This document shows, in pieces, positions 18,420 through 57,010 of a stretch of 57,144 nt of DNA. A program made the translations under genes and the position numbers. The DNA lies in assembly GCF_003003775.1 (NCBI RefSeq), contig NZ_PVWJ01000014.1:1-57144 (forward strand), in the 5' to 3' direction. This DNA is from Merismopedia glauca CCAP 1448/3. Lineage in GTDB: Bacteria > Cyanobacteriota > Cyanobacteriia > Cyanobacteriales > CCAP-1448. The notes below the pieces were generated by a model that worked only from the letters and a program-made list of their open reading frames with translations, was not told where the DNA came from and ran no database searches. Positions within the stretch are counted from its first letter, which is position 1; each line of letters begins with the position of its first letter.

Positions 18420-18475
18420 TGGGCAAAAAAAACCAAAAGCGTAACCATAGAAGTATTACGCCCGAAAAACACCAG

Positions 18476-18539
18476 GCATTGCTCATTTGAAGTATGAATT
18501 GTTGATTGTTGATTGGGTTTTCTTTCACCCCGATCTCTC
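18476..18539 (+). repeat. Dispersed direct repeat, copy 1
   Basis: Matches 57011-57067 along its length: begins GCATTGCTCATTTGAAGTAT and ends with a TTTTCTTTC.CCC and ATCTCTC segment. This copy has one extra GTTGATT heptamer. Confidence 0.75.
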
Positions 18540-18599
18540 ACTATTCCGAATTGGGGTGTCAACCTAGTTCATACCTTGATTCAGCAACGCCAAACACCA

Positions 18600-20220: not shown

Positions 20221-21801
20221 ATGTCTAAGGTTCTTGTTTGCGATCCAGTCGATCAAGCTGGGATAGAGATTCTTTCTCAAGTTGCCCAAGTAGATGTAAA
20301 TACTGGTTTACCTCCAGCAGAATTGATTCGCATCATTCCCGAATACGATGCGATGATGATTCGCTCAGAAACACGAGTGACAAAAGAAATTATTGAAGCT
20401 GCAACTCAATTGAAAATTATTGGGCGCGCAGGTGTTGGAGTCGATAACGTAGATGTCCCCGCAGCCACTCGCAAAGGAATTGTAGTGGTTAACTCTCCAG
20501 AAGGCAATACAATTGCGGCGGCGGAACACGCTTTAGCGATGATGTTGTCTCTATCTCGCTATATTCCTGAAGCTAATCAGTCCGTAAAAAATAGCCAGTG
20601 GAATCGTAAAGAATATATTGGTGCCGAAGTTTATAAAAAGACTCTAGGGGTTGTAGGATTAGGGAAAATAGGCTCCCATGTAGCTACAGTTGCTAAAGCA
20701 CTGGGAATGAAGATTCTCGCTTACGATCCTTTTATTTCTGCTGAAAGAGCCGAACAATTGGGTTGTAAGCTAGTCGATCTAGATTGGCTATTCAGGGAAG
20801 CTGACTATATCACTCTCCACATTCCCAAAACTCCAGAAACGGCTAATTTAATCAACGCTGAAGCCTTGGCGAAGATGAAACCGACTGTGCGGATTGTTAA
20901 CTGCGCTCGTGGTGGAATTATTGACGAAGATGCTTTGGCTGAAGCCGTGAAAGCAGGTAAAATTGGCGGTGCGGCTCTAGATGTATTTGCCAAGGAACCA
21001 TTGGGAGAATCCAATTTACGCGCTTTGGGTAAAGAAGTAATTTTGACACCCCACTTAGGTGCTTCCACCGCAGAAGCTCAAGTCAATGTGGCTATAGATG
21101 TAGCAGAACAAATTCGCGATGTGCTTTTGGGTTTACCTGCTCGTTCAGCCGTAAATATCCCTGGTTTGTATCCAGATGCTTTGGAAAAACTTAAGCCTTA
21201 TCTGCAACTAGCTGAAACCATTGGTAATATGGTTGGTCAATTAGCAGGAGGAAGAATAGATTATCTAAATATTCGCCTGCAAGGAGATTTGGCTGAAATA
21301 GATGGTAAACCGATCTTAATTGCCTCTCTGAAAGGTTTGCTATCTCAAGCTTTGCGAGAAAGAGTTAACTATGTTAACGCTAGTATCGAAGCCAAAGAAA
21401 GAGGTATTCATGTGGTAGAGACTAGAGATGCTACTATGCGCGATTATTCTGGCTCTTTGCACCTCTTAGCTAAAGGTTCTTTAGGAGAACACTCAGTTAC
21501 TGGCGCTTTACTAGGAGATCAGGAAATCCGCATTACCAGCATTGATGATTTCCCTGTGAACGTCGCCCCAACCCAGCATATGTTGTTTACCTTACACCGA
21601 GATATGCCAGGGATTATTGGCAAAATAGGCTCTTTGTTGGGTAGCTTTAATGTCAATATTGCCAGTATGCAAGTTGGTAGAAAGATCGTGCGGGGAGATG
21701 CGGTGATGGTTATTAGTTTAGATGACCCGCTTCCAGAGGGAATTTTAAATGAAATTACTAAAGTACCTGGAATTACTAATGCTTACACCGTTTCTCTGTA
21801 A
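20221..21801 (+). CDS. serA: D-3-phosphoglycerate dehydrogenase SerA
   Basis: First step of phosphorylated serine synthesis: oxidises 3-phosphoglycerate with NAD. At 526 residues it is the long form with substrate-binding and NAD domains, an intervening ASB domain and a C-terminal ACT domain. The NAD loop is GLGKIG (146-151). The active-site Arg is in VNCARGGIIDE, the Glu in VFAKEPLGE and the His in LTPHLGASTAEAQ. The ACT domain is TLHRDMPGIIGKIGSLLG onwards, expected to bind serine for feedback control. Start is ATG in good agreement with family members. Confidence 0.97.
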   Translation: MSKVLVCDPVDQAGIEILSQVAQVDVNTGLPPAELIRIIPEYDAMMIRSETRVTKEIIEAATQLKIIGRAGVGVDNVDVPAATRKGIVVVNSPEGNTIAAAEHALAMMLSLSRYIPEANQSVKNSQWNRKEYIGAEVYKKTLGVVGLGKIGSHVATVAKALGMKILAYDPFISAERAEQLGCKLVDLDWLFREADYITLHIPKTPETANLINAEALAKMKPTVRIVNCARGGIIDEDALAEAVKAGKIGGAALDVFAKEPLGESNLRALGKEVILTPHLGASTAEAQVNVAIDVAEQIRDVLLGLPARSAVNIPGLYPDALEKLKPYLQLAETIGNMVGQLAGGRIDYLNIRLQGDLAEIDGKPILIASLKGLLSQALRERVNYVNASIEAKERGIHVVETRDATMRDYSGSLHLLAKGSLGEHSVTGALLGDQEIRITSIDDFPVNVAPTQHMLFTLHRDMPGIIGKIGSLLGSFNVNIASMQVGRKIVRGDAVMVISLDDPLPEGILNEITKVPGITNAYTVSL

Positions 21802-21898
21802 TCTAGTTTCGTCTAAACCATTTTAGATTTGATGTTGAAGGTTAATTGGCGCGATCGCTAATTAATCTTTCACAACCCCCGATAATAAACAATTGAGC

Positions 21899-22813
21899 AT
21901 GAATAACAGTTGGTGGGAAATAGAAATCTCTTGCGATCTAGGTCTAGAAGAGCTAATATTTTGGCGACTAGAACAGTTTGGCTGCCGTGGCACAGCCACA
22001 GAAAGTCAAACCTTGAGCTTGTCGAAGGCTCAGGGCGTTTCTGGCAAAATTAAAACATATGTGCCAGTAGAGCAAGTAGAGCTATCAGATCTGACAGCTT
22101 TATCTGAAAAATTGCGCCAAGATGCTTTGTTAGCAGAATTCTCACCACCTTCCATCTGTTGGCAAATTGTCTATGAAGAAGATTGGGCAAGTAGTTGGAA
22201 GGAATACTGGCAACCGCAGGAAATAGGCTCAAAATTGGTTATTTATCCAGCTTGGTTACCTGTTCCAGCAAATATAGAACGCCAAGTACTCCGCCTCGAT
22301 CCAGGGATGGCTTTTGGAACTGGAACTCACCAAACAACTCAGTTGTGTTTAGAAGCTTTAGAAAGGCACTTGAAAGATGCGGAATCAGATCTCATTATTG
22401 CCGATCTAGGCTGTGGTTCTGGCATTTTGGGCATTTATGCCATTATTTTGGGCGCAGATCGGGTTTATGCTGTAGATACCGATCCCTTAGCGGTTTCCGC
22501 AACTCAGACTAACCGCCATCTAAACCAAATCGATCCTGTCCGCTTACTAGTAGAAACAGGTAGTATTGAAAAACTTCAGGAGATACTCCCAAAACCGGTT
22601 GATGGCTTTGTTTGCAATATTTTGGCGGAAGTAATCATTGAGTTGATTCCTCATTTTGAGGCAATAACTAAACCTACTGCTTGGGGTAGTTTGAGTGGAA
22701 TTATTCTAGATCAAGTGCCAGCAGTAACGGAAGTCCTAGAACGCTATGGTTGGAAGGTAGTAAATACTTCTTATCGTCAGGATTGGTGTTGCTTAGATAT
22801 TCAGCGTCAATAA
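21899..22813 (+). CDS. prmA: Ribosomal protein L11 methyltransferase PrmA
   Basis: Trimethylates lysines and the N-terminus of ribosomal protein L11. N-terminal substrate domain (WWEIEISCDLGLEELIFWRL) precedes the class I fold with IADLGCGSGILGI, and the PrmA signature DPGMAFGTGTHQTTQLCLEAL. ATG 21899 is used; a TTG sits two codons upstream. Odd feature: codons about 38-46 (LSLSKAQG) are encoded by a palindromic interspersed repeat (22011-22034) placed in frame in a loop between GTATES and GKIKTYVP. It follows serA by about 100 bp but may have its own promoter. Confidence 0.93.
   Translation: MNNSWWEIEISCDLGLEELIFWRLEQFGCRGTATESQTLSLSKAQGVSGKIKTYVPVEQVELSDLTALSEKLRQDALLAEFSPPSICWQIVYEEDWASSWKEYWQPQEIGSKLVIYPAWLPVPANIERQVLRLDPGMAFGTGTHQTTQLCLEALERHLKDAESDLIIADLGCGSGILGIYAIILGADRVYAVDTDPLAVSATQTNRHLNQIDPVRLLVETGSIEKLQEILPKPVDGFVCNILAEVIIELIPHFEAITKPTAWGSLSGIILDQVPAVTEVLERYGWKVVNTSYRQDWCCLDIQRQ
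22011..22034. repeat. Palindromic repeat in frame inside prmA
   Basis: CCTTGAGC and GCTCAGG-type arms flank TTGTCGAAG, the form of the common cyanobacterial element seen elsewhere between genes. Here it is read as part of the protein. Confidence 0.65.
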
Positions 22814-22972
22814 CCTAGTTACAATTAATTATCAGGAGCTTCGATTGAATAGATCTAAGCGGCTATGTATTTTAGCTAAATGTTAATTTGCAATAGTGCA
22901 TGAAATCAGTAAGTCAATCGTAACCAATAACATTCACAATAACTCGATCGCTAATTCACTTAGGAAGAAAGT

Positions 22973-23878
22973 ATGAATTGGAACTATGGATTAAGAGGGA
23001 TGGTTACGCCAGTCGCGATCGCCAGTGTTATTAGCATACAAACAAATGTGGCAGTCGCGTTAACTGGAGAAGAAGTTAATAATATCGCTAGAGAATTCAC
23101 AGTGTTGATTCAGGGTAAAGATGGGCATGGTTCTGGGTTTATCGTGTCTCAAAATGCCAAGACTTACTATGTAGTGACAGTTCAGCACGTAGTCGCAAAA
23201 TCCGGTAAGTATGCGGTAATTACGGCTGATAAACAAGCTCATGAGGTGGAAGGCGATCAGATTAAAGTCCTCCCAGGGGTAGACTTAGCTGTGATGCAGT
23301 TTGATAGCGATAAGACTTATCAAGTTGCTAAATTAGCTAATTCTGATACTCTTAGTGAAGGTAAGCCAATTTTTATTTCTGGTTGGCCTAAAGCTGGTGG
23401 CACAGGACAACTGGTACGGCAATTTACTGATGGTAGAATCTCTGGCTTTTTAGACAAACCTCTGCATGGCTACAAGGTCAGCTATACTAATGTCACTCGC
23501 AAGGGGATGAGTGGCGCTCCTGTGGTCGATGCTGCTGGACGAGTAGTAGCAGTTCATGGCATGGGAGATTCTGAAGATGCCAGGGTTTTAGAAAGTTCTG
23601 GCTTGTCAGCAGAAGTAGCTGATAAGATTGCCTCTTTAATTAAGCCTGGTTTTAACTATGGGATTCCCATTAAGACTTTTTTAAGTTTAGCGCCCCAAGA
23701 AGGATTGTATTTAAGTCTACAGGTAGAAAACACTCCGGCACCAGAATTAGGTGCGCCCTATGTGGCTAATGCTCAACCTGATGAAAAGGACAAAATCGAA
23801 AACATTAATGAGGTATTAGATACCGTAGATAAAGGTGTAGAAACGATAGATAGAGTCCGTAATATCTTTCGTTTTTAG
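22973..23878 (+). CDS. Exported trypsin-like serine protease
   Basis: A 301-residue S1-type protease with an N-terminal signal (RGMVTPVAIASVISIQTNVAVA). The triad can be placed at His72 (VTVQHVVAK), Asp104 (PGVDLAVMQF) and Ser180 (RKGMSGAPVVD). The serine box reads GMSGAP rather than GNSGGP, as in many cyanobacterial relatives. No PDZ domain; the tail (about 255-301) is acidic with a helical IENINEVLDTVDKGVETIDR. Ribosome site AGGAAGAAAG precedes ATG 22973. Likely periplasmic or lumenal quality control; target unknown. Its end overlaps cpcF by 4 bp, convergently. Confidence 0.85.
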   Translation: MNWNYGLRGMVTPVAIASVISIQTNVAVALTGEEVNNIAREFTVLIQGKDGHGSGFIVSQNAKTYYVVTVQHVVAKSGKYAVITADKQAHEVEGDQIKVLPGVDLAVMQFDSDKTYQVAKLANSDTLSEGKPIFISGWPKAGGTGQLVRQFTDGRISGFLDKPLHGYKVSYTNVTRKGMSGAPVVDAAGRVVAVHGMGDSEDARVLESSGLSAEVADKIASLIKPGFNYGIPIKTFLSLAPQEGLYLSLQVENTPAPELGAPYVANAQPDEKDKIENINEVLDTVDKGVETIDRVRNIFRF

Positions 23879-27140: not shown

Positions 27141-27272
27141 AAATTTCCTCCAAAAAGATTGGTCGATAAAGCAGATATTTACTACTTTACCGACCAATCA
27201 ATGATTTTACTCGTAACAGCAGCCATCAAGTTTGAGATATTTGTATGCCAAACTTTTGGCTTCTGTACAGAG

Positions 27273-27301
27273 GTAGAGACGTAGCAGTGCTACGTCTCTA
27301 C
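27273..27301. repeat. Perfect 29-nt palindrome, GTAGAGACG family
   Basis: 14-bp arms GTAGAGACGTAGCA / TGCTACGTCTCTAC around one base. It starts 8 nt past the cpcC stop and could attenuate transcription into cpcE. Confidence 0.85.
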
Positions 27302-27308
27302 AAGTGTT

Positions 27309-33729: not shown

Positions 33730-33907
33730 TGTCTGCTTCTCTCCTCTCACCAGCGAGCCGACTTAAATGTTTTGACGATGAACAGATCTAGAAAGTTCCT
33801 GAAACTAATTTAAGTGTGGCAAAATAATCATTGAATCAGCATAATTGCGGATTTTAACTCACATAAATTTACATTGTGTTCAGAAAAGGCTCCATCAAAA
33901 TCCAAAC

Positions 33908-33936
33908 GTAGAGACGTTGCATTGCAACGTCTCTAC
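33908..33936. repeat. Perfect 29-nt palindrome, GTAGAGACG family
   Basis: 14-bp arms GTAGAGACGTTGCA / TGCAACGTCTCTAC around one T; same architecture as 27273-27301 with compensating inner changes. Confidence 0.85.
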
Positions 33937-33989
33937 ACCCCAATGTGTAACCCAAGCAAATGAAAATGGTATTACTAAAGATAAAGATA

Positions 33990-56992: not shown

Positions 56993-57010
56993 TTAATGGC
57001 ACTTAAATCG

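Follow-up and report, generated by a model that had tools for sequence, protein, structure and literature searches.

Results

The prmA locus and its in-frame palindrome

The window (the whole stretch of DNA analysed, 57,144 nucleotides) carries on its forward strand a prmA gene, whose frame matches the TIGR00406 prmA profile with 250 bits (cut-off 183) and is also open from an alternative TTG start at 21893. Within this frame, the preliminary description had placed a palindrome at 22011-22034 (CCTTGAGCTTGTCGAAGGCTCAGG) encoding LSLSKAQG, and this was borne out, the peptide being specified by codons 22013-22036 and forming residues 39-46 of the protein. The features considered here are the following:

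21899-22813, forward strand: prmA, ribosomal protein L11 methyltransferase; 304 residues from the ATG at 21899, stop included
22011-22034, forward strand: palindrome as first noted; hairpin on the forward strand
22006-22029, forward strand: putative inserted 24-nt unit, TCAAA-CCTT-GAGCTTGTCGA-AGGC (leader, arm, loop, arm); absent from all aligned relatives; its removal leaves ESQGV
22015-22025, forward strand: constant loop GAGCTTGTCGA of the repeat family (TCGACARGCTCA, 25 genome copies; control, 0)
18552-18566, forward strand: empty minitransposon-like site found by a site-match search, filled by the 24-nt unit in five other copies

The forward-strand RNA of 22011-22034 is predicted to fold into a 10-bp hairpin of -15 kcal/mol (z -3.86), a value matched by none of 200 shuffles, while the reverse-strand RNA folds less well (z -1.58; 17 shuffles equal or better).

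Absence of the segment from PrmA relatives

PrmA was encoded in all 60 genomes searched (own genome plus 59). In a first alignment, comprising 29 relatives with loci out of the 59 relatives having PrmA, QTLSLSKA was missing from all 29 and corresponded to one eight-codon gap. It was also missing from all 80 sequences of a second alignment, comprising the best 80 of at least 272 confirmed PrmA relatives, where the gap introduced by the aligner fell at QTLSLSKA. The two sets overlap in part, and the second consists of cyanobacteria apart from one locus labelled as a Chloroflexaceae bin. Homologues with the same residues were sought in both sets, and none was found. A contig labelled as a Chloroflexaceae MAG (L135) encodes a PrmA 54% identical to the cyanobacterial one, and may come from a mixed bin.

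Removal of the 24 nt at 22006-22029 leaves GAA AGT CAG GGC GTT, which is translated as ESQGV, and at the same site relative L025 reads GAA AGT CAA GGA GTT, again ESQGV; an empty site would read GAAAGTCAGGGC or close to it. Since TCA is repeated, starts of the insert at 22006, 22007, 22008 and 22009 are equivalent and give one result. The best placing of the inserted 24 nt is 22006-22029; the boundaries first proposed are off by 2-5 nt, and the outer arm CTCAGG, then counted as repeat, is at least partly gene sequence. The nearest PrmA compared is only about 62% identical, and the insertion therefore carries no date.

In an AlphaFold2 model of PrmA (43 sequences; mean pLDDT 89.4), strands were predicted at residues 30-37 and 48-56, and the insert falls in a low-confidence beta-hairpin turn between them, residues 40-43 being the only segment of at least three residues with a pLDDT below 50. 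This turn is short, and its sequence varies among relatives. It is the position of the eight residues in the model that speaks for the earlier suggestion that a loop insertion is tolerated in PrmA, and the peptide probably needs no function there.

A dispersed family with a common loop

The segment had been termed an interspersed palindrome, a wording that holds for its loop but not for the exact motif. Within the own genome (5.2 Mb), CTTGAGCTTGTCGAAGGCTC with up to 3 mismatches had only two matches, prmA and one on C113 with 3 mismatches, and TTGAGCNTGTCGAAGG had one. TTGAGCTTGTCGAAGG, again with up to 3 mismatches, matched once in the window versus 0.69 in shuffles. Across the order, 7 of 388 genomes contained TTGAGCTTGTCGAAGG. 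The exact 23-mer gave no match in the genome contigs searched, a set that possibly leaves out the own genome. The genome searches with CTTGAGCTTGTCGAAGGCTC and TTGAGCNTGTCGAAGG had first suggested that there is no repeat at all, a reading overturned when shorter cores revealed the family. The loop 12-mer TCGACARGCTCA occurs in 25 copies in the own genome versus none for the reversed control, and in 49 copies versus 1 in the other compared genome of the family. The interspersed entity is thus a family with a common loop, and the exact prmA motif is not a genome repeat.

Of the 146 genomes compared across the phylum, 18 carry at least five copies of TTCGACARGCTCA (counted from the table), with no control above 2. 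The copy number of TTCGACARGCTCA was 92 in G209, 50 in G040 and 48 in G058, all genomes of the order, versus 21 in the own genome, and its spread is patchy, many relatives having zero copies. The exact 14-nt core TGAGCTTGYCGAAG is present in 13 copies in the own genome; with 2 mismatches, its matches are mostly background (107 versus 61 for the reversed core). Among the order's 388 genomes, a near-exact form, TTGAGCYTGTCGA(N)AGGCTCAG, was restricted to two, namely the own genome (three copies, prmA counted) and G001 (three copies). The window also holds another palindromic repeat, around GTAGAGACGT...ACGTCTCTAC, at 27268-27302 and 33903-33937, its two copies being 86% alike.

Structure of the unit and covariation of its arms

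The unit consists of a 5-nt leader, a 4-nt arm, the 11-nt loop GAGCYTGTCGA (with small variants) and a complementary 4-nt arm. The arms vary among copies yet pair (CACT/AGTG, TGCT/AGCA, TACT/AGTA, CCGT/ACGG). From 30 loci (L041-L070), 17 were used in an alignment (A2) and 16 in a covariance model, from which L065 was also left out. Omitted from both were (i) L042, which is the prmA copy and was excluded on purpose, and L057, (ii) L045, L049, L051 and L061, as near-identical minitransposon copies, (iii) L055, a copy of L054, and (iv) L058, L059, L063, L066, L068 and L070, as probable chance cores. Arm pairing amounted to 38 bp in the 17 copies versus 23.0 after reshuffling of partners (0 of 10,000 as high) and to 3.29 versus 1.66 bp in 49 G001 copies (0 of 5,000 as high), the minitransposon copies in these two tests not being independent. 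Paired positions reached 90.6% versus 70.2 in shuffles and the covariation score 0.496 versus 0.116 (0 of 500 each), while two of the five covariation measures were not significant, namely double-change pairs (3 versus 1.7; 62 of 500 shuffles) and pair types (6 versus 4.3; 50 of 500 shuffles).

The covariance model yielded 28 matches at E < 0.03 among the 150 of 2088 candidates that were scored, 16 of these being its own members. The prmA copy scored 18.2 bits (E 1.6); in the canonical register its arms fail to pair, its right arm reading AGGC where a nested unit has AAGG. This weak score speaks against membership by arms, and we put it down to probable decay after insertion.

A unit length of 24 nt in three contexts

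Copies of the repeat were also found nested within one another, and in 11 of 11 such cases, chosen by eye, excision of 24 nt restored a continuous host copy; six of the 11 have one inner unit in common, and L200 and L222 have common flanks. Ten of the nested insertions lie at TCGACARG^CTCA or a close variant, and one at GAGCTTG^TCGA. A second context is a minitransposon-like repeat, whose site TGGGGTGT N0-30 CAACCTA had 37 matches in the genome: 27 were empty, 5 held the unit in exactly 24 nt, and 5 contained unrelated stretches of 20-22 nt. A single event may account for all five filled copies. In the window, this minitransposon-like repeat lies at 18475-18595, devoid of the 24-nt unit, with a partial copy near 57010. 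Together with prmA, three contexts thus measure exactly 24 nt, the target being G^TCA in prmA and the minitransposon-like repeat and mostly ARG^CTCA in nested copies. The prmA 24-mer is identical to the nested G001 unit at 20 of 24 positions, and heptamer arrays (GAAGTCA) flank repeat copies.

The prmA copy may have arisen from a 25-nt form, shortened to 24 by a frame-restoring one-base deletion, a reading considered because the copies of the near-exact form outside prmA carry one extra A. The extra length in those copies is host sequence, however, and prmA is explained equally well by a pair of right-end substitutions on top of two leader differences.

Copies within other genes

The preliminary description spoke of an intergenic repeat, which proved too narrow, as other members also lie in frame within genes. 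The copies in prmA and leuS were compared with relatives, and those of L041, L044 and G001 were placed by domain only. In L041, a histidine kinase, the copy is at residue 499, within HATPase_c (462-594); in L044, it is also at residue 499, within an FGE-sulfatase domain (384-643). The L062 locus (L251; own genome, C31:25050) is leuS, encoding leucyl-tRNA synthetase (TIGR00396, 850 bits), and its stretch HAALRQAQEPLCAP was found in none of 19 aligned relatives. The site is a turn that is itself variable: the L270 sequence ends there, that of L266 departs from the others, and G001 carries a different, longer stretch. The insert in leuS, an essential gene, is compound, palindromic and in frame; a similar compound, GTAGGGGCGCAATCCT...GGAAC.GCTTTGCGCCC, occurs in the G001 adenylation-domain gene L214.

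In G001, a copy lies inside the domain of an ABC ATPase (L216), and others lie between domains, in the adenylation-domain protein L214 and in a CheA-like kinase (L242). A further one lies in the UDG frame L235 (C54:145389), in a weak intein match of 27.8 bits versus a cut-off of 35.8; this match holds a nested repeat pair. The translated peptides differ by reading direction, being LSLSK in prmA, STSS in L041 and L044, and LRQAQ in L062. Six units give 36 reading directions, of which 25 are free of stops in the codons wholly inside; the one running through TGAGC is closed in every unit.

Discussion

Overall, the prmA segment very probably represents one copy of a mobile 24-nt hairpin repeat, inserted without a frame shift. 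The earlier proposal that a dispersed palindrome had entered prmA in frame is supported, the segment being absent from every aligned relative in both sets and the family members being dispersed, nested and present in a minitransposon-like repeat. Since 24 nt make up eight whole codons, the unit would never shift the frame; because it is frame-neutral and most of its reading directions are open, insertions into loops would survive as eight-residue additions. We propose that a structured single strand, an RNA or DNA hairpin, might be copied and then inserted by trans-acting enzymes into targets such as G^TCA or ARG^CTCA. The prmA copy would have drifted after insertion, giving its present right arm.

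By its described features, the repeat appears to behave like the small dispersed repeats (SDRs) of cyanobacteria. The SDR units of Elhai 2008 reportedly measure about 21-27 nt; they are said to be palindromic with compensating changes in the arms, and to be found in tandemly repeated heptamers, in minitransposons and nested within one another, and movement via an RNA intermediate was reportedly proposed for them. The unit described here resembles them in (i) its length, 24 nt in all 11 nested copies, in 5 of 5 filled minitransposon sites and in prmA, (ii) its hairpin, backed by compensating changes with two of five covariation measures not significant, and (iii) its occurrence in GAAGTCA heptamer arrays, in a minitransposon-like repeat and in its own copies. 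Works citing Elhai 2008 (PMC3116915, PMC2884548, PMC4390886) give SDR lengths of 20-odd nt, and SDR5 is described there as inserting inside HIP1, whereas the target of the 24-nt unit would be G^TCA or ARG^CTCA.

A likeness also exists with the Rickettsia palindromic elements (RPEs; Ogata 2000/2002), which, as presented in PMC10969869 and PMC3733652, are in-frame palindromic repeats in unrelated genes, as here in prmA, leuS, and the HATPase_c and FGE domains. RPEs as described there are about 150 bp long and have a conserved peptide; in contrast, the 24-nt unit is read in differing directions. RPE-4 and RPE-6 are classed as CGTC repeats in PMC3733652. Among the papers surveyed, on RPE and REP and citing Elhai 2008, we found no description of the prmA insertion, and the motif strings had no match in the literature searched.

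REP elements of the GTAG and CGTC superfamilies are, according to PMC3733652, mostly intergenic palindromes of 20-40 bp, some lying wholly within ORFs, and are reported in cyanobacteria too; in these respects they may be compared with the 24-nt unit. That the prmA segment is a REP-type palindrome mobilised by a REP-associated tyrosine transposase (RAYT) would account for its size and hairpin, and the genome has five Y1_Tnp matches, two of them within frames 172 and 198 aa long. We nevertheless consider this unlikely, given that the loop motif is missing from all five of these loci (2.7-3.4 kb each) and that six units read by eye are without a GTAG or CGTC head. An ordinary lineage-specific indel in the prmA loop, resembling the repeat by chance, is less likely again: the short and variable turn, the weak score in the family model and the unpaired arms would fit it, but the insert contains the exact family 12-mer, with its 25 genome copies against none for the control, and has the exact unit length and 20 of 24 positions identical to a nested unit. 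Least probable of all is that the hairpin was retained for a function (prmA translation control, mRNA stability or an added PrmA contact), as, for all the strength of the forward-strand hairpin, the segment is missing from 29 of 29 relatives and from 80 of 80 (the best 80 of at least 272), no Rfam match occurs at 21700-23000 of the window, and the residues fall in the low-confidence turn.

Insertion of a mobile 24-nt hairpin repeat thus being the reading we prefer, one may ask whether its length is incidental. It is conceivable, though doubtful, that it is not, and that an eight-codon, frame-neutral, mostly open unit was selected to survive inside genes. The family would then act as a codon cassette from which conserved enzymes (PrmA, LeuS, kinases, FGE) repeatedly gain loop peptides, by way of a copied structured single strand devoid of transposon ends of its own.

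For annotators, the finding is a warning that a peptide such as LSLSK, STSSA or RQAQ within a conserved protein may come from a translated repeat. In this genome the unit is exact, one site exists 27 times empty and 5 times filled, copies nest within one another at a single position of the loop, and conserved genes are entered in frame; unit length and target preference are therefore testable across close strains. At 24 nt, such units would count among the smallest mobile DNA segments, and the prmA case would clearly exemplify a class of mobile DNA that is very small and still little understood.
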